Notes under the pieces: model-generated
Seen by the model: only the letters and a program-made list of their open reading frames with translations
Told to the model about the DNA's origin: nothing
The model's database searches: none
Made by a program: the position numbers and the translations under genes
From: an uncultured Salinisphaerales bacterium
GTDB lineage: Bacteria > Pseudomonadota > Gammaproteobacteria > Nevskiales > OUC007
DNA length: 44,641 nucleotides
Reading direction: 5' to 3'
Assembly (NCBI GenBank): GCA_937896565.1
Contig: CALBOV010000247.1
Span: 1 to 44,641, forward strand
In this document: positions 14,899-33,344 of the stretch, piece after piece
How positions within the stretch are numbered: the first letter of the stretch is position 1
Layout: the number at the start of each line of letters is the position of its first letter

Positions 14899-16224
14899 TT
14901 AGCGCCCAATAGTTTCCCCGCTCGCACCGACGGTTTGCAAGCGCAGGGCGCAAATGGGAACCGGTCGCGGGAATCCTTTCAGTGTCTCGGGTGGCTGGTC
15001 GACGGCGGTCCAGTGGCCCCCGCCACCGGCTTCGTCGCGGGTTCGGGTGTCGGCGAGAATCTCGCCGTCGGCGGCGCGGTTGCACAGCCGTGCGGCGAGC
15101 ACGACCGGGTTCCCCACCGCACCGTATTCGAGGCGGCCCGCGCCCCGTAGCGCGCCAACCGTGACCCTGCCGGTCGCCAGGCCGATGCCGAGTCCGACCC
15201 GGGGTGCGTGACCGTCGCGGATCAGCATGTCGCGAACCGCGGATTGCAGCGTGAAGGCGAGTTCGATGCCTCGGCGCGCGTGATGCGTGACCTGAAACGG
15301 CGCGCCGACCAGGATCACGACGCCATCGCCGGCATGGTCCTTGACCGTGCCGCCATGCGCCCGTGCCGCGTCCCCGACGGCCTGATAGAACGACTCCAGC
15401 AAACCGAAGATCTCGTCCGATGCCCGCTCTCGCGCGTAGGCGGAAAATCCGCGCAGATCGGCGACCACGACGGTGAGCACGGTGCGCCGTCGCTCCAGCA
15501 GATGGTCGAGGCCGTGGGCGCGGACTTCCTGGGCGACCTGCGGTGACAGGAACTGGCCCATGAAATCTCCGCGGCGGCCGAGAATCGTCAGATAGCGCAC
15601 CGAGGATGCCGACAGGATCACCAGCCCGACCGCGACGAGATAGGGCTCCACCCAGTGGCTGAAGACCAGCGCGCCGATGAGGAATGGCGTGGCCATGTAC
15701 AGCATCCGCAGGCGCAGCGCGTCGGTGGAATCCAGCCGCGTCGTGAGCAGCAGCACGATGGCGATGCCGGCCGCCGTCAGCGCGGAGCCCAGCACCGGCG
15801 CGAAGATGGCGAACTCGATGCCGCGCACCTTGATCAGGCCGCCGGCGTCGGATGTGGCCTGCTCCGGGGCGATCAGCACGTAGCCCGCGGACAGTCCCAT
15901 CAGCACCACGGTCAGCAGCTGGGAGACGCGGAACAGCCAGTGCGCGGCCACACCGCGTCGCCCGCGCGCGGAGCGGCCGATGCGACGCCCCCACTCCATG
16001 CCGGCGAGGATGGCCGAGGATTCCAGCACTTCGCCGACCAGGGTCCAGAAGACGCGTCCGGCGGTGGCCACCGCCGGTTCCAGCGCCTGCAGCAGCCCGA
16101 TGATGACCAGGCACAGCGCCAGCGCGCGGTTGATGCGGTCGGCGGGGTCGGTCAGCCAGCTCGCCAGCCCCATTCCGATCGCCAGGATGGCGACGACCAG
16201 ATGGGCCGCATCCCCCAGGGGCAT
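14899..16224 (-). CDS. Class III adenylate/guanylate cyclase domain protein with N-terminal multi-TM region
   Basis: TVVVADLRGFSAYARERASDEIFGLLESFYQAVGDAARAHGGTVKDHAGDGVVILVGAP...GLGIGLATGRVTVGALRGAGRLEYGAVGNPVVLAARLC. Confidence 0.85.
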   Translation of the reverse strand: MPLGDAAHLVVAILAIGMGLASWLTDPADRINRALALCLVIIGLLQALEPAVATAGRVFWTLVGEVLESSAILAGMEWGRRIGRSARGRRGVAAHWLFRVSQLLTVVLMGLSAGYVLIAPEQATSDAGGLIKVRGIEFAIFAPVLGSALTAAGIAIVLLLTTRLDSTDALRLRMLYMATPFLIGALVFSHWVEPYLVAVGLVILSASSVRYLTILGRRGDFMGQFLSPQVAQEVRAHGLDHLLERRRTVLTVVVADLRGFSAYARERASDEIFGLLESFYQAVGDAARAHGGTVKDHAGDGVVILVGAPFQVTHHARRGIELAFTLQSAVRDMLIRDGHAPRVGLGIGLATGRVTVGALRGAGRLEYGAVGNPVVLAARLCNRAADGEILADTRTRDEAGGGGHWTAVDQPPETLKGFPRPVPICALRLQTVGASGETIGR

Positions 16225-22320: not shown

Positions 22321-22340
22321 GCCGGTCAGTGCTGACCGGC
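22321..22340. terminator. GC-rich hairpin at convergent gene ends (GCCGGTCAG-TG-CTGACCGGC)
   Basis: 9-bp perfect arms between the yicC stop and the end of the decaheme gene; no T-tract, so terminator function is uncertain. Confidence 0.35.
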
Positions 22341-24551
22341 CAGCGTGGTCCGCGGCATCGTCGCCTCGAAATCCCCCACGTGGTAACGGTGGCATAGCGA
22401 GCAGTCGGCGCCAGCCTGGTCCGGCTGATGGCAGTCCAGGCAGACCGCCTTGTTCAGCGGCGCGAAGTTGCTGGCGAAGTTGTGCGGGTCCCGATCGTCG
22501 AAGCTGTCCGCGTACGGGGCCTCGTTGTCGATCTGGTGGCAGGTCTCGCAGCCGGCGTCGCCCAGCAGGCTGAAATGCGTGCTGTGATCGAATTCGGTGA
22601 AGTGGTGTTCGGTCGGGGCCACCCGCTTGCCCTGCCACTGCGCCGTGGTGGCGCCGGAGGCATCAACGTCCAGGCTGTGGCACTGGGTGCAGGCGCCGGG
22701 GGTTCGCGGGTCCAGCCAGTCTTCCATGCCCTGCTGGCGGGTGGCGAGTTCCGTCCATGAGCGCAGGACGGGGTCGGCATGGCCGGCCGGGCGATAGCGC
22801 AGATGGAATTCGTCCAGATACCAGCCGCCCAGCGCCATCCGCTCCTCGTCGGACTTGGTCACGACCTCGGGCTCCGAGTCCTCGGGTTCCGGATCGGCGA
22901 AGGGGTCGCCGATGTCGTCGCCGCCTCCGAAGATGTCGCCCCCGAACAGATCACCGCCGTCATCGCCGGAATCCTCCGCGAACAGGTCGCCGAAGCCCTC
23001 GTCGCCGTCATCGGAGAACAGCGCGTCGAATTCGTCGTCATCGACCGCGTCGCCGCCCTCGTCGTCCGCCGCGTCATCGTCGGATGGCGGCCGCAGCGCC
23101 TCTGTGGCGGGCGCGCTGCCCGACGCCCGCGCCTCGATCTCGGTGTCCAGCATCGGGAACCACCGTGTCTGCGCCGCATCGACCAGTGTCGCCGGCAGCA
23201 GGCCGGTCAGTCGCCGTTGTTCGTCCGCGCTCAGCGTGCGTCCCATCGCCGCTTCCAGGCGCGTGACCAGCGCCTGACTGCCGTCGGACTGGATGGCATG
23301 CACCAGCGCCTTGAACTGCCAGGCCAGTTCGGACGCGGCGGCGCGCGCTTCCGCGGACGCGGATTCCAGGTCCAGCAGGTCGACATCGGCCAGCGTGTCG
23401 CGAATGTCGGCATAGGCGGGATCGCCGGACAGCAGCAGTTCGGTCATCGGCGTCAGGTCGCCGTCGGCGAACTCCGGCCACTGGCCGATGTTCTCGACCA
23501 GGGTCAGATCAAGTCCGGGAACGGACAGTCCCGCGACGCCCTTGGGCCCGGCCAGCGCATCGCCGGCGATGTCGCCGGCGTGACAGGCGCCGCAGCTCTG
23601 ATCGAAGTCGCGGACTTCCATGGTCCGGCCGTCCGCCGCCGTCGTATGGCAGTCGGAGCAACTGGATGGTGCCTGCTCCGCCTCATCACTGAAATGCTTG
23701 CCCAGATGACTGGCGTGATCGAAGACGATCCGGGTCCTGCGGTCATAGGGGTAGTCGGTGAAATCGGGGTGCCCGCTGTTGAAGCTGACGAAGCGCTGGC
23801 TGTGGCAGACCTGACACTGGCTGTCCGCGACGTCGCGCAGGTCCGCATCCACGCCCTTGTGTTCCTCGTGACAGCTGCCACAGGCGATCGGCGCCGATGG
23901 CGTCGTGAACAAGGCCCGATTCAGCTCGACCGGCCACGGTCCCAGCGAGCCCGATTGCTGATCGTCCACCGCTGGCAGCGTGGCGAGGCTATGCGGCGAC
24001 AACGGCGCATCCCCGACATCGTGACAGTTCAGGCAGGCGTGCCTGGTATCGGACGGGAACTCGGGATGCTGGCCGAATGCGGCCGCGAGCCAGCCGGAGG
24101 CGCTGTCGCCCGGTGCGTTGTGGCAGGCCGAGCAGTCGGCGACGGTGGAATGGACGGCTGACAGATGGCCGGGCTGCACCATGTCCCCGGCCCAGATGCC
24201 GGCCACGCCGAGAATGATCAGCCCGAGCGTGGCCGCGATCGTGCTGCGCACCACGAGCTTGCGGCGATAACGCCAGCTGCGTCGCGGCCGGCACGGCGGC
24301 GTGATGCAGCCACAGCTTCCGTCGGACTGCGGTCCGGCGTCGCAGGGGCCACCGTGCAGCGGCCCGCGCGTGCAACGCCAGCGATCGCCGTCGCGGGCTG
24401 GTGCGCACTGCGGTCCGGCGCCGCAGCGCCCCTTGGGATCAGGGCCGCTCAGGCAGCATTCGCCGTCGGCCAGGCGTCCGCAGACCCATTTCTGATTCGG
24501 GCGGTGGTAGGGGCTGGAGCGGTAGTCGAATCCCTGAAGCCGTTCGGTCAC
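22326..24551 (-). CDS. Decaheme c-type cytochrome with N-terminal Cys-rich domain, one TM anchor and an acidic D/G/F-rich linker
   Basis: Ten CXXCH: CSACH, CLNCH, CGSCH, CQVCH, CSDCH, CGACH, CTQCH, CETCH, CLDCH, CSLCH; TM STIAATLGLIILGVAGIWAG; GTG start at 24551 directly after the upstream gene's stop. Confidence 0.85.
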   Translation of the reverse strand: MTERLQGFDYRSSPYHRPNQKWVCGRLADGECCLSGPDPKGRCGAGPQCAPARDGDRWRCTRGPLHGGPCDAGPQSDGSCGCITPPCRPRRSWRYRRKLVVRSTIAATLGLIILGVAGIWAGDMVQPGHLSAVHSTVADCSACHNAPGDSASGWLAAAFGQHPEFPSDTRHACLNCHDVGDAPLSPHSLATLPAVDDQQSGSLGPWPVELNRALFTTPSAPIACGSCHEEHKGVDADLRDVADSQCQVCHSQRFVSFNSGHPDFTDYPYDRRTRIVFDHASHLGKHFSDEAEQAPSSCSDCHTTAADGRTMEVRDFDQSCGACHAGDIAGDALAGPKGVAGLSVPGLDLTLVENIGQWPEFADGDLTPMTELLLSGDPAYADIRDTLADVDLLDLESASAEARAAASELAWQFKALVHAIQSDGSQALVTRLEAAMGRTLSADEQRRLTGLLPATLVDAAQTRWFPMLDTEIEARASGSAPATEALRPPSDDDAADDEGGDAVDDDEFDALFSDDGDEGFGDLFAEDSGDDGGDLFGGDIFGGGDDIGDPFADPEPEDSEPEVVTKSDEERMALGGWYLDEFHLRYRPAGHADPVLRSWTELATRQQGMEDWLDPRTPGACTQCHSLDVDASGATTAQWQGKRVAPTEHHFTEFDHSTHFSLLGDAGCETCHQIDNEAPYADSFDDRDPHNFASNFAPLNKAVCLDCHQPDQAGADCSLCHRYHVGDFEATMPRTTLAGQH

Positions 24552-24553
24552 GT

Positions 24554-25369
24554 TCAGGTGCCCCCGAATGCGTGAGCGGCCACGAGATGCAGCAAGGCCA
24601 GAAGCAGCATCGCCGCGGTCAGCGGGACATGGACGAACAGCCATGCCTTGAGCAGGCCCTGCACGGTGTAGTGCATGTCCAGGTCCGACTTCTGGCGACA
24701 GAGGTCCGCGAGCTCGCGAGCGAAGGGCTTCTCGTCCTCGGACAGGTAACGCTCCAGCGCGATCAGGCGATCACGTTGCCGGGTGACGTAGTGCGTCGGC
24801 CCCAGGTGACGCCAGCGCCAGTGCGGTGCCATGAACAGCTCGGCGAGATGGGTTCGATAGTGGTCCCCCAGCAGCACCGAGTCGGTTTGCGTGGCGGCGG
24901 CGATCACCAGTTGTTCGGCGCGCCGGCGCAGCCGTTCCGAGAACATGGGGATGCGCTCGTAGAGCAGTTCCTCGTCCGTCGCCGCCAGTCGCGGTGGCAG
25001 GGTGCGCGACCAGTAGAGTCCGGCCAGACCGCTGCCCGCGGTGCCGACGAAGCTGAGCCACAGCAGCCATTCCAGCGGCGCGTCGGGCAGGGAGAAACCG
25101 GTATGGGCGACGAAGACGACGATCGCGAACGCGCCGGTGTAGGCGTGGAGCTGCAGCCAGACCGCCGCGCGACCAATCGGCAGCATCGACACGCGCTTGC
25201 GTTGCGAGTAGAGGCTCAGGAACACGACGGTGCCTATCAGCAACCAGCCGGTCCAGAACGGCGCTCGCGTCAGTCCCGCCGATACGGCGGCGAACAGCGC
25301 GGCGGCGATCAGCACGACGATCGCCCACGCGGTCAGATTGACCCGGCGCCGCTTCGCGAAGCGCATCAT
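24554..25369 (-). CDS. Predicted diheme b-type integral membrane protein
   Basis: About five hydrophobic helices; HAYTGAFAIVVFVAH and HVPLTAAMLLLALLH each give H-x13-H; ATGA overlap with upstream gene. Confidence 0.7.
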   Translation of the reverse strand: MMRFAKRRRVNLTAWAIVVLIAAALFAAVSAGLTRAPFWTGWLLIGTVVFLSLYSQRKRVSMLPIGRAAVWLQLHAYTGAFAIVVFVAHTGFSLPDAPLEWLLWLSFVGTAGSGLAGLYWSRTLPPRLAATDEELLYERIPMFSERLRRRAEQLVIAAATQTDSVLLGDHYRTHLAELFMAPHWRWRHLGPTHYVTRQRDRLIALERYLSEDEKPFARELADLCRQKSDLDMHYTVQGLLKAWLFVHVPLTAAMLLLALLHLVAAHAFGGT

Positions 25370-27564
25370 CGGTGCAGCCAGTCCAGCAGATTCGGCAGAT
25401 CGCGCATGTCCACGCGCTCCAGCGCGTCGTGGGGGCAGGCCCGCTGACAGGCGGGACCGCCGGGCTGGTCGATGCAGAGATCGCACTTGGTCGCCTTCAT
25501 CACCGGCGAGCCAGTGGCGTTGTTCTGCACGAACTCGCCGCTGTTGTTGCGGATTTCGACCATGCGGATGTTGTCGTAGGGACAACTGTTCGCACAGGTC
25601 GCGCAGCCGATGCAGGTGTCGTCGTTGATGACGACCTGTCCCTGTTCGGAGGAGCGATGAATCGCCCCGGTGGGGCAGCCGATCATGCACACCGGGTCCG
25701 CGCAGTGCATGCAGGCATTGGCGATCATCAGCGAGTCGTGACGATGCCCGTGCCGGTTGAAGCGCGGATTGTTCTGGTGGCCGACCGCGCAGGCGTCGGT
25801 GCAGGCGTCGCAGCGGACGCAGCGGTCCAGGTTGATCAGCATGGCCGCGCGGCCGTTGATCAGATGACGGTCCACCAGGGTCTCGACCAGGGCGTCATCG
25901 TCGCCGCTGGGGCGCACGTCCAGCGCGTTGGTGGGCGTCGCGTTCCCGCCGGGCCGATACGTCGCCAGCGAGTCCTTGAGCGTTTCCGCCTGCATCTGCC
26001 GCGCGCGCTCGAGCTGCGCCTCGGTCAGGTTCGGCAGGACATGGGTCTCGATCACGCGGGTCGGCACGCGCAGGATGTCGGCGTACCCCACCGCGCGCAG
26101 CGAGCAGCGGTAGGTGGACTGGCCTTCGCCGTTCCAGCCGGCCAGCAGCTCGTCGAGGCCGAAGGCCGCACCGCGCCCGAGGTAGTTGATCGTCTGCTGG
26201 CCCTTGTGCAGGGGGCGCGTGACGCGGGCGAAACCGGAGCGGATCAGCAACAGGCCGTCAGGATAGTCGCCGGCGCGCACGATTTCGGGTTCGATCTTCA
26301 GCCGCTGGGCCTCGGGCTGGTCGGCCAGGCGTTGATAACTGGTGTGCCAGTCGAATTCGCCAAAGCTCTCGAACAGGGTCTGCCGGGCGATTTCGTCGAT
26401 GACGTCGTCTGGCAGATGGCTGAACAGCGGAGTGGCTCGCAGATGGGTGATCAGGCTGTTGGCCCGGTACAGATCTTCCACATGCTTGCGGAACGCGGCG
26501 TCGCGCTTGCGCAGATCGCGCAGGCCCTGCCAGCGGATTTCCAGCAGGATGGAATCCTCTTCGGCGAAGACGGTCGCAGTGCGCTGGGTGCGACCAAGCG
26601 CCGCGATCTCGCCGAACACGTCACCGGTCTTGAGTACCGCGGACTGCGTGTGATCCAGCACCGCCGGGATGTCCTGGACGAATGTGTGGCCAGCACCGGC
26701 CTGGGCCGCATCCTCGATGACCGTGTTGCCCCACTCGGCGTCCACCGCCGAGGGGTTGAGGATTCGTGTACTGAGCATCGATGTCTGATCGAGATCACCC
26801 TCGCCCACGAAGCGGAGGTGGCTGCGGCCGATCCGGATCTCGTCGCCACCGCCGAGAATATGGTGTTCGATGCGTTCGCCGCTGACGAAGGTGCCGTTGG
26901 AACTGCCGAGGTCGATGATCTCCCAGCCCAGCTCGGTGGCCTGGAGCCGGGCATGCGATGACGACGCCGCGGAGTCGTCGAGGATCAGGTCGTTGTCGGC
27001 GCCCCGGCCGATGCGAATGCCCTCGTGGCCGGCGCTCGTCAGAATCTGCTCCTGGAGCATCTGCCCCTGCGCGTCCCGCACGATCAGCCGGGCGGGCGAC
27101 GGGGGCGTCTTCTCCGGCTCGGAGACGTAACGCGAGACATCCCGCACCTCGGGGTGGCCTGGATTCTTCCAGAGCTGGGCCAGCGCCTGCAGCCAGTTCT
27201 TCTGGCGCGGGCTTGCGCGGCCCAGGGACTCTTCCGGCAGGCCGGGGGGCAGAATCACCCGCACCCGTCCCTGAACGATCAGAAAGGCGGAGTTACCGTA
27301 GTCACCGGCGCGAACGACGATCTCGCCGCGGGTCAGACGTCGCAGGCGGGTGTCGTTGCGGACGATCCCCTCCAGCGTGATCGGCGGCCGGAACCGTGAC
27401 GGATCCATGCTGGCGAAGGGCTCCATCGACAGCACGCGCTGCACGTCCCGCTCGCCCATGCCCTCGCCAAAGGGCTGCGACCAGCGCTGCGGCGGTGGGA
27501 TGGACGAGACTGGCGCCGGCCCGCTCCCGGCGCGCAAATCCCTTGTCAGTATGGATTCGGCCAC
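25366..27564 (-). CDS. cNMP-binding / FHA / cNMP-binding-like / 4x[4Fe-4S] ferredoxin fusion protein
   Basis: RGEIVVRAGDYGNSAFLIVQGRVRVILP ... IRIGRGADNDLILDDSAASSSHARLQ..IIDLGSSNGTFVSGERI (FHA) ... GDVFGEIAALGRTQRTATVFAEED (phosphate-binding cassette) ... CVRCDACTDAC, CMHCADPVCMIGC, CIGCATCANSC, CDLCIDQPGGPACQRAC. GTG start. Confidence 0.85.
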   Translation of the reverse strand: MAESILTRDLRAGSGPAPVSSIPPPQRWSQPFGEGMGERDVQRVLSMEPFASMDPSRFRPPITLEGIVRNDTRLRRLTRGEIVVRAGDYGNSAFLIVQGRVRVILPPGLPEESLGRASPRQKNWLQALAQLWKNPGHPEVRDVSRYVSEPEKTPPSPARLIVRDAQGQMLQEQILTSAGHEGIRIGRGADNDLILDDSAASSSHARLQATELGWEIIDLGSSNGTFVSGERIEHHILGGGDEIRIGRSHLRFVGEGDLDQTSMLSTRILNPSAVDAEWGNTVIEDAAQAGAGHTFVQDIPAVLDHTQSAVLKTGDVFGEIAALGRTQRTATVFAEEDSILLEIRWQGLRDLRKRDAAFRKHVEDLYRANSLITHLRATPLFSHLPDDVIDEIARQTLFESFGEFDWHTSYQRLADQPEAQRLKIEPEIVRAGDYPDGLLLIRSGFARVTRPLHKGQQTINYLGRGAAFGLDELLAGWNGEGQSTYRCSLRAVGYADILRVPTRVIETHVLPNLTEAQLERARQMQAETLKDSLATYRPGGNATPTNALDVRPSGDDDALVETLVDRHLINGRAAMLINLDRCVRCDACTDACAVGHQNNPRFNRHGHRHDSLMIANACMHCADPVCMIGCPTGAIHRSSEQGQVVINDDTCIGCATCANSCPYDNIRMVEIRNNSGEFVQNNATGSPVMKATKCDLCIDQPGGPACQRACPHDALERVDMRDLPNLLDWLHR

Positions 27565-27566
27565 GA

Positions 27567-28583
27567 CTACGGCGTGTGGACCGAGCCCTTGTACGCGTCC
27601 GGCTTCGGCAGCAGGCCGTCCAGCGCGGCCAGCTCACTGCCGTCGTATTTGCTTGCGATGGCCTTGGCCTGGGTGGCGACCTGATCGGCGGCCGCGGTCA
27701 GTGCCGCTTCGTTGTTCAGTGACACTTTCGCCGAGCCGGCGATCTTGAGCAGCGCCCCGACCTCGGGAATGCTGACCCCGGCATCCGAAATCGCCTTGAT
27801 GCGCAGTGCCGAACGCTTGGCGCGCTTGGCCATTTCCACCGCGTACTGCGCCTTCTGCGTCGCCTTGGCGACACCGCGCAGCGCGTATTCGAGATCCAGG
27901 GCCTGACCGACCAGGAACATCAGACGCTGGCGATTCTGCGACGCCTCGGCATTGGCCGCGCCGTCGTTGTACCAGACGTTGTGGCGCACTTCGCCCTGGC
28001 TCCAGGCGACCAGTTCGAAGTTGCTGCCGGCCGGGTGTCCGCCGGTGTTGACCAGGTTTTCCTTGGGCACGGTGTGGCACTGGTAGCAGTTCTCGGCCAG
28101 CTTGTAGAGATCGCCGGGACGGATCATGCCGGCGGCCTCGGACTTGGCCCAGCGCTCCTTGCGATGCGCCTCCGATTCGGTTTCCGCGGTGGCGTCCTTG
28201 CCGCCGAAGTCGCTGTGGATCTCGATCCAGTCCTTGCCGGCGCCGTGGCAGGATTCACAGGTGATGCCCGCGATGGTGTCGACCTCGCCGTCCTCCATCT
28301 TCGACGTGAAATGGCAGGACACGCATTCGCCCTCGGCCTTGATGCGCTTGATGTCGAGCTTGTCGGCGATGTCGCGTGCCTCGTCGGTGCGCGGCATCTG
28401 CTTGAAGGTGGAGAAGTGGTGGGTGTCGCGCCAGGCCGCGATCGATGCCTCGTGGCAGTCGCCGCAGGCAGTCGGGCCCATGACCTTCTCGGGGTCCAGG
28501 CGCAGTTCCTGGGCCTGGGCGGTCGACAGGCCGGCCCATCCGCAGATGGCCAGGATGGTGATGGCGAGGGTTGAACGAATCAT
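27567..28583 (-). CDS. Tetraheme cytochrome c554-like protein
   Basis: Signal peptide MIRSTLAITILAICGWAGLSTAQA; CGDCH, CVSCH, CESCH, CYQCH. Confidence 0.85.
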   Translation of the reverse strand: MIRSTLAITILAICGWAGLSTAQAQELRLDPEKVMGPTACGDCHEASIAAWRDTHHFSTFKQMPRTDEARDIADKLDIKRIKAEGECVSCHFTSKMEDGEVDTIAGITCESCHGAGKDWIEIHSDFGGKDATAETESEAHRKERWAKSEAAGMIRPGDLYKLAENCYQCHTVPKENLVNTGGHPAGSNFELVAWSQGEVRHNVWYNDGAANAEASQNRQRLMFLVGQALDLEYALRGVAKATQKAQYAVEMAKRAKRSALRIKAISDAGVSIPEVGALLKIAGSAKVSLNNEAALTAAADQVATQAKAIASKYDGSELAALDGLLPKPDAYKGSVHTP

Positions 28584-28629
28584 CGGTCGGGTCTCCGGGG
28601 CGGGCGATGGCATTGGGGCGTGGCGGACG

Positions 28630-29907
28630 TCAGGCGTCCAGCACCACGTTGGAGGTGGGGCGGGCGATGCAGACGAGGCAGGAACCGGCATCCGGCGCGG
28701 CGGCGGGCGGCGTGGCGTAGTCGACCGCCCCCGAGCGCACCGCGGTCACGCAGGTGCCGCAGTTGCCGGCTCGACAGCCGGAATCGATGACCACGTCGTG
28801 GGCTTCCGCCAGTTCGAGCAGGCTGTCGGCGCCGGACCAGTTCACGGTCTTGCCGCTGTGCGCGAACTCCACCGAGAACGTGGGTGCGTCGGCCGCGACC
28901 GCCGGGGCGGGTTCGGTCTTCTTGATCGACGCGGGTCCGAACGCTTCCATGCGGATGTCGGCTTCGGGCACACCCCATTCGGCCAGATCGGCGGTGACAC
29001 CGGCCATCATCGGCGGCGGGCCGCAGATGTAGAACACGTAGTTGTTGGACGGCAGCAGCTTCTTGAACAGCTCGACGCCGACATAACCCTGATGATGGAA
29101 GTGCTCGCCCAGCTTCTCGTCGTCGGTCGGGTTGCTGTAGCAAAGGCGGATGCGCACGTTCTCGTGCGCCGCTTCCAGGGCGCGCAGATCATCCTTGTAG
29201 ATCTGCTCGGCGCCGAAGCGCGCGCCGCTGAAGAACCAGATCTCCTGGTCGTAGCCCGCGGCGCAGGCGGCCTTGAGCATGCTGAACACCGGCGTGATGC
29301 CGACGCCGCCGCCGATCAGCACGATTGGGCGGCGCTCCTCCAGGTCGAGGAAGAAATCCCCCGCGGGGGCCTTGACGTCCAGAATCTCGCCTTCGGGCAC
29401 CTGCGTGTGCAAAAAGGTCGAGGACTGGCCGGGCGGGGCCTCCGGACTCTTCGGCGGCGGATCCAGGCGCTTGACCGAAATCCGGTAGTAGTCCGTCTCG
29501 CTCGGGCTGTCGGACAGCGAATAGCAGCGGACCAGCGGCTTGGCGCGATCCGGCAGTTTCAGCTGGAACGTCAGGAACTGGCCGGGCTTGAACGCCGGCA
29601 GCGGCTTGCCGTCATGCGGCACCAGGTAGAACGAGGTGACCGTGTCGCTCTCCGGCACCTTGCGTTCGACACGGAATTTCCGTGAGCCGGACCAGCCGCC
29701 CTCGGCATCGCGGACCGCGCGCAGATGTCTGGCCGCGGCACCGGCGAGATCCTTTTCGAGTATGCGCAGCCGCTGATCGTGAACCGTGCGCGCCTGCACG
29801 GCGTCCCGGCGTGCCTGCAGCAGTGAAAACGCCAGATGCAGCATGGCGCCGATGACGAGCAGCGCGCCGAGCAGCTGCACGGTAACCGGAGCAATCAGCC
29901 AGTCCAT
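28630..29907 (-). CDS. Membrane-anchored FAD/NAD(P)-binding oxidoreductase with C-terminal plant-type 2Fe-2S ferredoxin domain
   Basis: N-terminal TM VQLLGALLVIGAMLHLAFSL; RCYSLSDSP (FAD); IVLIGGGVGITPVFSML; YICGPPPMM; CRAGNCGTC...C (2Fe-2S). Confidence 0.88.
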   Translation of the reverse strand: MDWLIAPVTVQLLGALLVIGAMLHLAFSLLQARRDAVQARTVHDQRLRILEKDLAGAAARHLRAVRDAEGGWSGSRKFRVERKVPESDTVTSFYLVPHDGKPLPAFKPGQFLTFQLKLPDRAKPLVRCYSLSDSPSETDYYRISVKRLDPPPKSPEAPPGQSSTFLHTQVPEGEILDVKAPAGDFFLDLEERRPIVLIGGGVGITPVFSMLKAACAAGYDQEIWFFSGARFGAEQIYKDDLRALEAAHENVRIRLCYSNPTDDEKLGEHFHHQGYVGVELFKKLLPSNNYVFYICGPPPMMAGVTADLAEWGVPEADIRMEAFGPASIKKTEPAPAVAADAPTFSVEFAHSGKTVNWSGADSLLELAEAHDVVIDSGCRAGNCGTCVTAVRSGAVDYATPPAAAPDAGSCLVCIARPTSNVVLDA

Positions 29908-31322
29908 CAGAGCTTCACCACCAGCTCGGCGCGGATGCCTTGCTGGTCCTGTCCCGTATCCGCGGCCGAGGCGAAGCCGCCGAACTGGAGGATCACGCGC
30001 CGGCCGACCGCCTGCTGCAGCCGGAACGACAGCGCCGTGGCATCGGTGTCGGAGACTTCATGGTTGCCCCGGCGACCGGTTTCGACGATGAGCTGCGTGC
30101 GATTGGCGTTCCAGAACATCTGGTAGCCCATCGCCACGCCCCAGGCGTTGTCGGTGCGGTTGCCCAGCGGAGCCGGGAACGAACCGATTCCGCGGGCCGC
30201 GAAGGTGATGCCGGTCCGCCCCAGCGGGCCCCCGGCAAGCGGGTCACGCGCCGCGGACGAGAAGTTGTCCTCACCCCAGAACGCGTTGGCGTAGAACAGG
30301 TTGTGCGTCCTGTGAGGGGTGAGCGACCACTCCATGAAGTACAGCTGGCCGTTGTCCGAGGAGGGTAGGTCCAGGCCGTCCTTGCCGAAGTCATCCGAAT
30401 GCAGGATGCGGATCGTCGAGTTGATCAGGCCGAAACGCTGGACCGCGCTGAAGCCTCCGACGAACAGATCGCCGCGTCCTTCGGTGCCGTCGACGACTGC
30501 CAGGTCCAGGTCGAAGGTGCTGGAGAACTGGTTGCCGAACACCGTGTCCCACTGCGTGAACAGCCCGTAGAGTCGCGCGCCGTCATCCGGAGCGTTGTCG
30601 TCGCGGTCGATCTCGTCCCAGGCGTAGAGGAAGGTCACGCGCAGGTTGTTGAGCCAGCCAAGGCTCGGAAAGCGCAGGTTGTTGCGCGTCAGGCCGATGG
30701 CGTCGAGCCGGTCGTCGATCAGGAAGCCGTCCTGAAAGGTGATCTGCTGGCGGCCGATGGAGAAGCCGATGTCCAGGTCCAGCCGGTCGGTCGGGTCCAG
30801 GGCAGGGAACAGCTCGCCGAAGTCACCTTCGAAAAACAGCGTGGTGATGTCCGCGTTGGTGTGATCCTCGTACGGATCCTGCCGATCCGGGTCGTATTGC
30901 CAGCCGGTGAAGTTCGCGCCGTCGTTCAGCGGCCGGATGCCGATGAGCACCCGCTCGCTGCCGGAGAGCTGCAGGTTGCCGAACAGATCCAGGCGATTGA
31001 CCAGCTCGCTGCGTCCGGTGCCGGCTTCATTGTCGAAGCTCTGCAACGCGGACCGGAACGTGCCGTAAACCCAGAATTGGGGTTGCCACACGGCGCCTCC
31101 GGGCAGCTGGAAACCATGCGGAATGTTGCCCGGCCCGAGGAATTTGCCGCCCAGCTCCACGATCGGGGGCGTGAGCTTGGGCAACTCCTCGTCGTCGAGA
31201 TACTCGCCCGGTTCGTCGGAGAAACGGCTGCTGCCGCCGGCGGCCAGCGCCGACCCGGTGGTCAGCAACAACCCCAGCATCAGCGCCCTGGCCATGATTT
31301 TTGGTGCAGCCTTGTCCGCCAC
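29907..31322 (-). CDS. Predicted outer-membrane porin / beta-barrel protein
   Basis: Signal peptide MARALMLGLLLTTGSALAAG; alternating barrel strands; C-terminal GIRAELVVKL. GTG 31322 has an AGGGGAG RBS-like motif; the ORF track extends to ATG 31343. Confidence 0.75.
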   Translation of the reverse strand: MADKAAPKIMARALMLGLLLTTGSALAAGGSSRFSDEPGEYLDDEELPKLTPPIVELGGKFLGPGNIPHGFQLPGGAVWQPQFWVYGTFRSALQSFDNEAGTGRSELVNRLDLFGNLQLSGSERVLIGIRPLNDGANFTGWQYDPDRQDPYEDHTNADITTLFFEGDFGELFPALDPTDRLDLDIGFSIGRQQITFQDGFLIDDRLDAIGLTRNNLRFPSLGWLNNLRVTFLYAWDEIDRDDNAPDDGARLYGLFTQWDTVFGNQFSSTFDLDLAVVDGTEGRGDLFVGGFSAVQRFGLINSTIRILHSDDFGKDGLDLPSSDNGQLYFMEWSLTPHRTHNLFYANAFWGEDNFSSAARDPLAGGPLGRTGITFAARGIGSFPAPLGNRTDNAWGVAMGYQMFWNANRTQLIVETGRRGNHEVSDTDATALSFRLQQAVGRRVILQFGGFASAADTGQDQQGIRAELVVKL

Positions 31323-31370
31323 AGTGTCGACTCCCCTGATCATCCGGTCTCGAGTTCCCTGTTCCGCGCC

Positions 31371-33344
31371 CTAGTCGGAGTCCGCCTGCGCAACGGTTGC
31401 GCCTCCAACCTCCAGCCTGCGCTCCCAGATCACCATGTGCCCGGCCACCACACCGTCGGCCACATCCCGCGGGCTCATGCCGTAGTCGAAGCCCACATCC
31501 TTGATCTCGGCGACCAGGTTGACGGGAATCATGGCGGCCTTGAGTTCCGCGGAGACGGTGTAGGGTCCGTTGCCGTTCAGGGGGCTGTGGTACTTCGCCG
31601 TCCGCTTCGCGCCGGGCGATAGCACTTGCCGGTGCTTGCGGGCGCCCGCCGGCTGCCCGGTGAGAATGGTGGACGACGTGCTGGGACGGATGAACGGCAG
31701 CGGGTCGATCGAGTAGTTCACCGTCAGCACCTGCTCGCGTTCGCCGCCGCGGACGTTCCGGGTCACGAACTTCGACTGCATGTTGAACAGCTGCGTGTCC
31801 AGCGGCAGTTCGCCGTTGTGCACGTAGAGGGAATGCGAGTCGCGCACGTCGCCGTTGGGGTCGAGATCACCCGACTCCATCAACACCTTGCCGTCGGCAT
31901 CCTTGACGACCACATGCAGCCAGATCACGCGTTCGGCATCGAAACCGGTCGGCACGCTGTGGCCGTTCATGATGTTCTTCACATCCAGCTCGAACTTGAG
32001 CTTGCGGTCGGACTGGCTCGTGATCGCGACCTCGCTGAGGCCGAACCCGTTGCGCATCACCTCGAGGCGCTTGGTTCGTGCCCATTCCAGGCGTTCGAAC
32101 TGCTCGTCGAGAATTGCCCGGGCGTCATAACGGTCATCGATCGCACGCCAGCGTTCGGGGAACTCGAAGTCATCCGGCACGGTGTCCTCGAACGCGTCCG
32201 TGCCCCAGCCCGCCTCGTGATCGAACTTCAGCCAGTCGCGCGGCGTTGCCAGCTTCGTCGCCTCGATGTTGTGCGGGAAGATGCCGGGATGAACGATGGA
32301 ATAGTCGGGGCCGGCGAAGAAGTGGTTCGTCAGCTTCCGATCCGGGGTCGGCTTGCTGCCAATCATCGCCGCCGGGCCATAGGCATAGTCGCTGACCTTG
32401 CCCTGCACCGTGCCCATGTGGCAGTCCTGACAGCTCGTCCCCTCGGCCGCCGCGGGCGACTGCTTGTAGTCGGAGAAGGCCTCTTCCAGACGGAAGCCAT
32501 TGAACAGGTTCACGTCGTGGCAGACACCGCAGAAGCCGGATTCGCCAATGTATTCAAAGGTGCGCACACCACCATGGATCTTGCGGCCCGACTTTTCAGG
32601 GTCCGGGGTGAGGGTGCCGCCGGAGTTGTCGATCGTCGCCTGGAGGACCCGCCCGTCGGTGGGGCCGTAGACCGGAGCGGTCAGATCGCCGGTTTCCAGC
32701 GCGACACGACCGCTGACCTTGCCGTAGGGCTGGCTCAGGCGGTGGCAGACCACGCAGGTGATGCCCTCGCTGGACGCCGGGTGGCGGTCGAGGTTGGAGA
32801 TGAACGGGGATTCCCCCTTGTTCATGCCGATCTGCGTATGGCAGCGAATGCAGAAATCGCCGTTGGTGCTGCTGGTCTGCGCATTGATCGTGCGCTGCAT
32901 CGACATGTAGACCGGCGAGATCTGCGCGTAGGCATGCTGTGACACGGCCCATTGCTCGAACTGCACGGGATGGCAGCTTCCGCAGGTGTTCGCCGACGGA
33001 TACTCCTCTTCCTCGAAGAGCAGTCGATGAATCTGATCGGGGGTGAGCTGGTCGCTTTCCGGTTCGGTTTCGGCGACCTCGGTGGGTTCCGTCTCGGTGG
33101 CGGCCGGGGCTTCTCCACTCAGCAGATCGGAATCGCCGTCCAGCAGACCTCCCGAATCGCCCAGCAGATCGTCGTCGCCTTCCAGCAGGCTGTCGCCGCC
33201 CAGCAGGCCGTCGTCGCTCTGCTGTTCGGATGAGTCGTCGAGCAGGTCGCCTTCCAGCAATCCCCCGTCGAGCAAATCATCCTGTGCCGAGACCACGCTG
33301 CACGCCAGCATCACAGCGGCGGCGATCAGTCCTCTCCGGATCAT
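31371..33344 (-). CDS. Pentaheme c-type cytochrome with acidic Leu/Gly/Asp-rich N-terminal linker
   Basis: Signal peptide MIRRGLIAAAVMLACSVVSA; CGSCH, CIRCH, CVVCH, CGVCH, CQDCH; C-terminal NIMNGHSVPTGF region. ATG 33344 preferred to the longer ORF start at 33443. Confidence 0.85.
   Translation of the reverse strand: MIRRGLIAAAVMLACSVVSAQDDLLDGGLLEGDLLDDSSEQQSDDGLLGGDSLLEGDDDLLGDSGGLLDGDSDLLSGEAPAATETEPTEVAETEPESDQLTPDQIHRLLFEEEEYPSANTCGSCHPVQFEQWAVSQHAYAQISPVYMSMQRTINAQTSSTNGDFCIRCHTQIGMNKGESPFISNLDRHPASSEGITCVVCHRLSQPYGKVSGRVALETGDLTAPVYGPTDGRVLQATIDNSGGTLTPDPEKSGRKIHGGVRTFEYIGESGFCGVCHDVNLFNGFRLEEAFSDYKQSPAAAEGTSCQDCHMGTVQGKVSDYAYGPAAMIGSKPTPDRKLTNHFFAGPDYSIVHPGIFPHNIEATKLATPRDWLKFDHEAGWGTDAFEDTVPDDFEFPERWRAIDDRYDARAILDEQFERLEWARTKRLEVMRNGFGLSEVAITSQSDRKLKFELDVKNIMNGHSVPTGFDAERVIWLHVVVKDADGKVLMESGDLDPNGDVRDSHSLYVHNGELPLDTQLFNMQSKFVTRNVRGGEREQVLTVNYSIDPLPFIRPSTSSTILTGQPAGARKHRQVLSPGAKRTAKYHSPLNGNGPYTVSAELKAAMIPVNLVAEIKDVGFDYGMSPRDVADGVVAGHMVIWERRLEVGGATVAQADSD

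Follow-up and report, generated by a model that had tools for sequence, protein, structure and literature searches.

The seven-gene locus analyzed here lies on contig CALBOV010000247.1 of an uncultured Salinisphaerales bacterium (GenBank assembly GCA_937896565.1), all 44,641 nucleotides of which are referred to as the window. Judged by its gene content and motifs, the locus is a cassette of porin-cytochrome cluster 4 (PCC4), subgroup II. On balance, we take it to encode a gated electron line through the cell envelope that is linked to NAD(P)H and in which the net flow would most likely be outward.

The cassette consists of seven intact open reading frames on the minus strand at 22326-33344, which are designated A to G in the order of transcription: a pentaheme cytochrome (A), a porin (B), a reductase (C), a tetraheme cytochrome (D), a fusion protein with signalling and Fe-S domains (E), a b-type-like membrane protein (F) and a decaheme cytochrome (G). 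From A to G, the intergenic gaps measure 27, -1, 46, 2, -4 and 2 bp. There are 19 CXXCH motifs, five in A, four in D and ten in G. An earlier note on this DNA, made from the sequence alone, had given the same place, order, tight packing and heme count, all of which hold. The ATGA overlaps that it described exist at E/F, but the B/C junction is a 1-bp TGATG overlap. It had also stated that the locus matches no standard operon; this is true for Mtr, Nrf, Dms and Otr but not overall, as the locus fits PCC4 subgroup II. PCC4 was catalogued in 2017 from genomics only (He, Barco, Emerson and Roden; PMC5566968). According to the main text of that survey, subgroup II comprises a porin, cytochromes with 4, 5 and 10 hemes, and an inner-membrane protein with an SGXXG and two WX3HX13H motifs, the latter being preceded by a pfam13247 Fe-S gene and the tetraheme gene by a redox gene (PMC5566968). 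The window has a barrel model for B, 4, 5 and 10 heme sites in D, A and G, and SGLAG and two WX3HX13H motifs in F; E has a PF13247 match (5.9e-10) and shares 4 bp with F, and C lies 46 bp upstream of D. A literature search found no biochemical work on PCC4 and, beyond He et al., only one paper that mentions PCC4 together with porin and cytochrome, in passing.

When 84,980 species genomes were scanned, E had 216 relatives, of which 80 were kept (L- and G-numbers below are labels of relative loci and genomes in this survey). A neighbourhood search showed the same gene set, arranged as a cassette, in dozens of genomes, which is more than chance. All seven genes are present in 47 of 85 loci, and many of the others are interrupted by contig ends. 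The carriers bear about 12 phylum labels, including Pseudomonadota, Planctomycetota, Nitrospinota, Nitrospirota, Verrucomicrobiota, SAR324, Zixiibacteriota and Latescibacterota, a few of which likely reflect mis-binning of metagenome-assembled genomes (MAGs). The E proteins of L068 (labelled Kiritimatiellae) and L074 (labelled Gammaproteobacteria) are nearly identical, probably through mis-binning, and the phylum label of single MAGs was therefore not trusted. E was found in 3 of 369 sampled genomes of the class (including the window's own), and E or fused E in 8 of 85 genomes of the order (including all three genomes of the genus). At the level of the phylum, 14 of the 299 genomes sampled have F. 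The nearest named relative found is an Abyssibacter sp. MAG, whose E is 87% identical. The host assembly (4.07 Mb, 414 contigs, 88.5% complete) contains a single copy of E.

The link to NAD(P)H would be provided by C and is suggested by a fused form of E. C (28630..29907, minus strand, as are all features of the cassette) has an N-terminal transmembrane anchor, FAD and NAD(P) domains of which the flavin domain is Hmp/NqrF-like, and a C-terminal [2Fe-2S] domain; the FAD, NAD and 2Fe-2S parts are matched by Pfam. E (25366..27564, GTG start at 27564) is a predicted cytosolic protein with Pfam matches to the cyclic nucleotide monophosphate (cNMP) domain in three stretches, FHA and 4Fe-4S. The 16 cysteines of its four [4Fe-4S] motifs (residues 582-710, 25435..25821) are of the PF13247 type. 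The fusion of cNMP, FHA and 4x[4Fe-4S] proposed in the earlier note is thus present, but its order is cNMP-FHA-cNMP, with FHA inside the first cNMP beta-roll. Loci L025-L028 have no C, and their E proteins, which form a single clade distant from the rest of the E tree, are longer. In the two that were tested, L025 and L026, the extra N-terminal length corresponds to a Pyr_redox FAD/NAD(P) domain. Such a Rosetta-stone fusion in loci devoid of C would place the NAD(P) flavin directly at E and tie the wire to NAD(P)H.

On the membrane side of E, F (24554..25369) is an inner-membrane diheme-b-like protein with W71-H75-H89, SGLAG (113-117) and W243-H247-H261; the W-H-H, G-x-x-G and W-H-H motifs are invariant in 39 sequences. 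Simple hydropathy gives three clear segments, and the PCC4 inner-membrane protein is described with five transmembrane helices. The Ferric_reduct model PF01794 did not match F of the window and matched 4 of 39 F relatives weakly. Pfam gave no convincing family for F or B, profile searches of PDB sequences with these two gave no matches, and no plasmid record that would indicate plasmid-borne spread encodes an F relative. G (22326..24551, 741 aa, start most likely GTG at 24551) has ten hemes and a single transmembrane segment (residues 99-117). Because an Arg-rich stretch comes just before this segment, the positive-inside rule would place the N-terminal head of G in the cytosol and its hemes in the periplasm. 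This head (residues 24-87, 24291..24482) has exactly 8 conserved cysteines and no Pfam match.

The sequence shows the gene set and its co-conservation, the domains, the heme and histidine counts and the NAD(P) flavin-E fusion in relatives; carrier order, direction, gating and acceptor are inferred. Electrons would pass from NAD(P)H to the FAD and [2Fe-2S] of C, on to the four [4Fe-4S] clusters of E and then to the two b hemes of F, possibly with help from the 8-Cys head of G. From F they would reach the ten periplasmic hemes of G, tetraheme D and finally pentaheme A at porin B. The line would resemble a split ferric-reductase/NADPH-oxidase-like engine wired to cytochromes, and its role could be extracellular reduction or redox balancing.

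E might at the same time act as the gate, in that binding of a cyclic nucleotide would switch the cytosolic junction on or off. The phosphate-binding motif FGE..AL..R..R.AT is kept in the first cNMP fold (residues 317-331, 26572..26616, FGEIAALGRTQRTAT) and is found in 72 of 90 E proteins. In the window's lineage, the inserted FHA domain (residues 181-254, 26803..27024, in a loop of the first cNMP beta-roll) could bind a phosphoprotein and thereby add further switching of the E junction. This insertion is common to one clade (Shimodaira-Hasegawa-like approximate likelihood ratio test 99), which comprises the window, two congeners, G379 and a Planctomycetota-labelled MAG. Other FHA domains are N-terminal, single in L042 and L056 and double in L058; as the two positions occur in separate clades, FHA was gained at least twice. 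Ser/Thr kinase genes are divergent neighbours of C in L042 and L056, and L067, L070 and L081 have class III cyclase genes in this divergent position; in L085 such a gene comes next to the cassette. The window's genome also encodes kinases and class III cyclases. One of the latter, a membrane-bound class III nucleotidyl cyclase at 14899-16224 on the minus strand (PF00211, 5.8e-9), is a possible source of cNMP for E. We do not claim it as an operon partner, since it lies about 6 kb away with unrelated genes between. The domains of E suggest that the electron line can be switched. More tentatively, second messengers may gate electron export: a cyclic nucleotide and a phosphoprotein would act directly on the [4Fe-4S] junction that connects NAD(P)H of the cytosol to the 19-heme wire, and the local cyclase or kinase would change with the sensor domain from lineage to lineage. 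The literature search found no papers in which multiheme cytochromes are linked to FHA or cyclic nucleotide domains, and the term "cyclic nucleotide" is absent from the main text of He et al. (PMC5566968).

Ferric reductase and NADPH oxidase engines push electrons outward. Outward flow is favoured because the NAD(P)H flavin and the two HX13H pairs resemble these engines and because RuBisCO is mostly missing from the carriers: it was absent from 21 of 23 genomes with the cassette or its core (20 of the 23 at least 90% complete), including all three of the window's genus. CO2-fixing metal oxidation or lithotrophy is thus weakened as a general role. Several points weigh against a gated outward line. 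Its direction is derived from the two arguments just given, F could instead meet the quinone pool, and a Mariprofundus MAG (L096) with homologues of B-G is among the carriers. FHA is missing from most cassettes and E relatives, and the cyclase and kinase neighbours are few and come partly from related genomes, so that they count as suggestive only. The barrel model of B is narrow, which makes it doubtful that a complete heme wire crosses the outer membrane there.

The strongest competing explanation is an inward flow, in which electrons of an extracellular donor such as Fe(II) or Mn(II) would be taken up via A/B, D, G and F, with quinone or, uphill, NAD(P)+ as the acceptor. He et al. in their main text propose inward flow for PCC4, with the inner-membrane protein at the quinone pool, and the same text lists the first carriers as marine Zetaproteobacteria and Hyphomicrobium of metal-oxidising niches (PMC5566968), with which the Mariprofundus MAG would agree. 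The scarcity of RuBisCO argues against uptake, and the flavin reductase and its fusion form would be superfluous in a quinone-linked uptake line. The carriers also include Hwanghaeella grinnelliae, Bythopirellula polymerisocia and Verrucomicrobiota, which are generally known as heterotrophs. We thus regard inward flow as possible but rather unlikely.

The cytochromes bear on a second alternative, a periplasmic reductase, as already raised in the earlier note, or a detoxification system. Here the porin would admit a soluble substrate, which A, D or G would then reduce with electrons from NAD(P)H. Histidines outside CXXCH were counted in aligned proteins (56 of A, 79 of D, 71 of G). At a conservation of at least 94%, D has four and G ten; at 96% or more, A has five (H106, H137, H257, H341, H462). 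Each protein thus has one per heme, and two more in A are less conserved. With a conserved distal His candidate for each heme, no heme looks open or catalytic, and all 19 may be bis-His and thus form a wire. The cassette is also without a gene for another catalytic cofactor. On the other side, D (27567..28583, secreted, 4 CXXCH and 4 conserved distal His) is c554-like, A has sub-threshold matches to the ExtKL pentaheme model NF040886 (27 bits, far under the curated cut-off of 250) and to the multiheme selenoprotein MccSep, and the barrel of B resembles substrate channels and is apparently too narrow to sheath a decaheme. Taken together, a reductase seems unlikely. A NrfA- or DmsE-like enzyme identity was dropped, as all model matches were sub-threshold.

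A (31371..33344, 657 aa, secreted, 5 CXXCH) has a c552-like fold with a C-terminal beta-sandwich, and Pfam matches C554 domains in both A and D. The fold of A matches that of the pentaheme c552 of Thermochromatium tepidum (PDB 5ze8; Foldseek E 2.3e-14, template modelling score 0.69 by target; profile match E 5.2e-16), and the match takes in the hemes and the beta-sandwich. This c552 has no clear assigned function and is related to ExtKL and to archaeal cytochrome nanowires (PMC11976967). A differs from c552 and ExtKL in its own acidic N-terminal tract and in its genomic partners, the porin and the C-G module. This tract (residues 21-112, 33009..33284) has 'DDLLGGD' repeats and is predicted to be disordered; a similar Asp/Gly/Leu-rich tract occurs in G (22827-23084), and such tracts are present in L008 and not in L009. 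Perhaps they serve as docking or metal-binding tails.

B (29907..31343) has, like A and D, a signal-peptide-like N-terminus. Its AlphaFold model (predicted local distance difference test 85.5) is an outer-membrane beta-barrel with about 18 strands, for which Foldseek lists MOMP, OprD and AlgE as the nearest solved folds. MtrB, the porin that sheaths a decaheme, has 26 strands (PMC7198977), which puts a sheathed heme wire in doubt. Either A could contact the barrel on a single face, or a soluble partner could be let in. Of the regulated trans-envelope conduit proposed in the earlier note, an electron system with parts in cytosol, inner membrane, periplasm and outer membrane is supported by these parts and their co-conservation, but a sheathed crossing of the outer membrane is doubtful.

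The gene set is divided into two modules. D-E, E-F and F-G are adjacent and co-directional in 75-78 loci; D-E-F-G are nearly always together, with A-B-C on either side of them, and the heme counts 5/4/10 are kept across loci. Where at least 9 kb were available on each side (28 loci), C was found in 27, D in 26, F and G in 27 each, and A and B in 19. The pairwise distances of A follow those of B closely (correlation 0.97); the correlations are 0.34-0.39 between A or B and the other genes and 0.61-0.87 among C-G. A and B thus form one evolutionary module and C-G another, and the outer-membrane pair behaves as a plug-in. A mere neighbourhood, in which the pentaheme-porin pair would be a system of its own beside a cytochrome/ferredoxin complex, would agree with these correlations (0.97 against about 0.35) and with loci in which the pair is divergent or absent, but it is very improbable, given that A and B recur beside C-G, on either side, in many phyla and that the gaps in the window are a few bases.

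In L026-L028, D-E-F-G occur with 9-10-heme cytochromes that replace A-B. Beside the E-F-G module of L008 (14622-19852), L026 (1-4677) and L027 (1-4298), a 9-10-heme cytochrome (10 hemes in L008, where it stands next to the cassette) adjoins a second porin-like gene, possibly another uncharacterised outer-membrane electron module; the L008 version has what look by eye like LVIVD repeats. Between G and the porin-like gene, L026 (4620-6971) and L027 (4288-6429) encode proteins with what appear by eye to be tandem GlcG/HbpS-type heme-binding domains. In the window, the cassette is flanked by yicC and gmk. In a congener it adjoins gmk but has a DUF6351 gene on the opposite side; this tannase-like gene is found beside the cassette in the congeners (L021 13819-16119; L022 3541-5844) and not in the window.

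PCC4, so far a survey name only, turns out to be a conserved cassette under many phylum labels, tied to NAD(P)H and with built-in signalling domains, and its carriers, where checked, are mostly bacteria without RuBisCO. New here are the one conserved extra histidine per heme, the two modules, the FAD/NAD(P)-E fusion, the repeated gain of FHA, the 8-Cys domain of G and the scarcity of RuBisCO. If the gated outward line is true, many seemingly ordinary bacteria can switch an electron line to their envelope on and off, and one purified protein, E, would suffice to test for a post-translational gate on this flow.

Compared with PCC4 as described in the main text of He et al., E of the window adds an FHA domain inserted in the cNMP fold, and a link to NAD(P)H is favoured here whereas the quinone pool is favoured there. 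The cassette shares with Mtr, Mto and Pio a porin, a decaheme and periplasmic carriers. Unlike these, it has a porin with about 18 rather than 26 strands, its decaheme is anchored in the inner membrane and it is without an outer-surface decaheme; an Mtr/Mto-type conduit was rejected on account of the size of the porin and the way in which the decaheme is anchored. With the ferric reductase/NADPH oxidase systems it has in common the two HX13H pairs on helices and an operon with an NAD(P)H-FAD protein, but the functions are divided among separate proteins, with the 4x[4Fe-4S] protein E between them.

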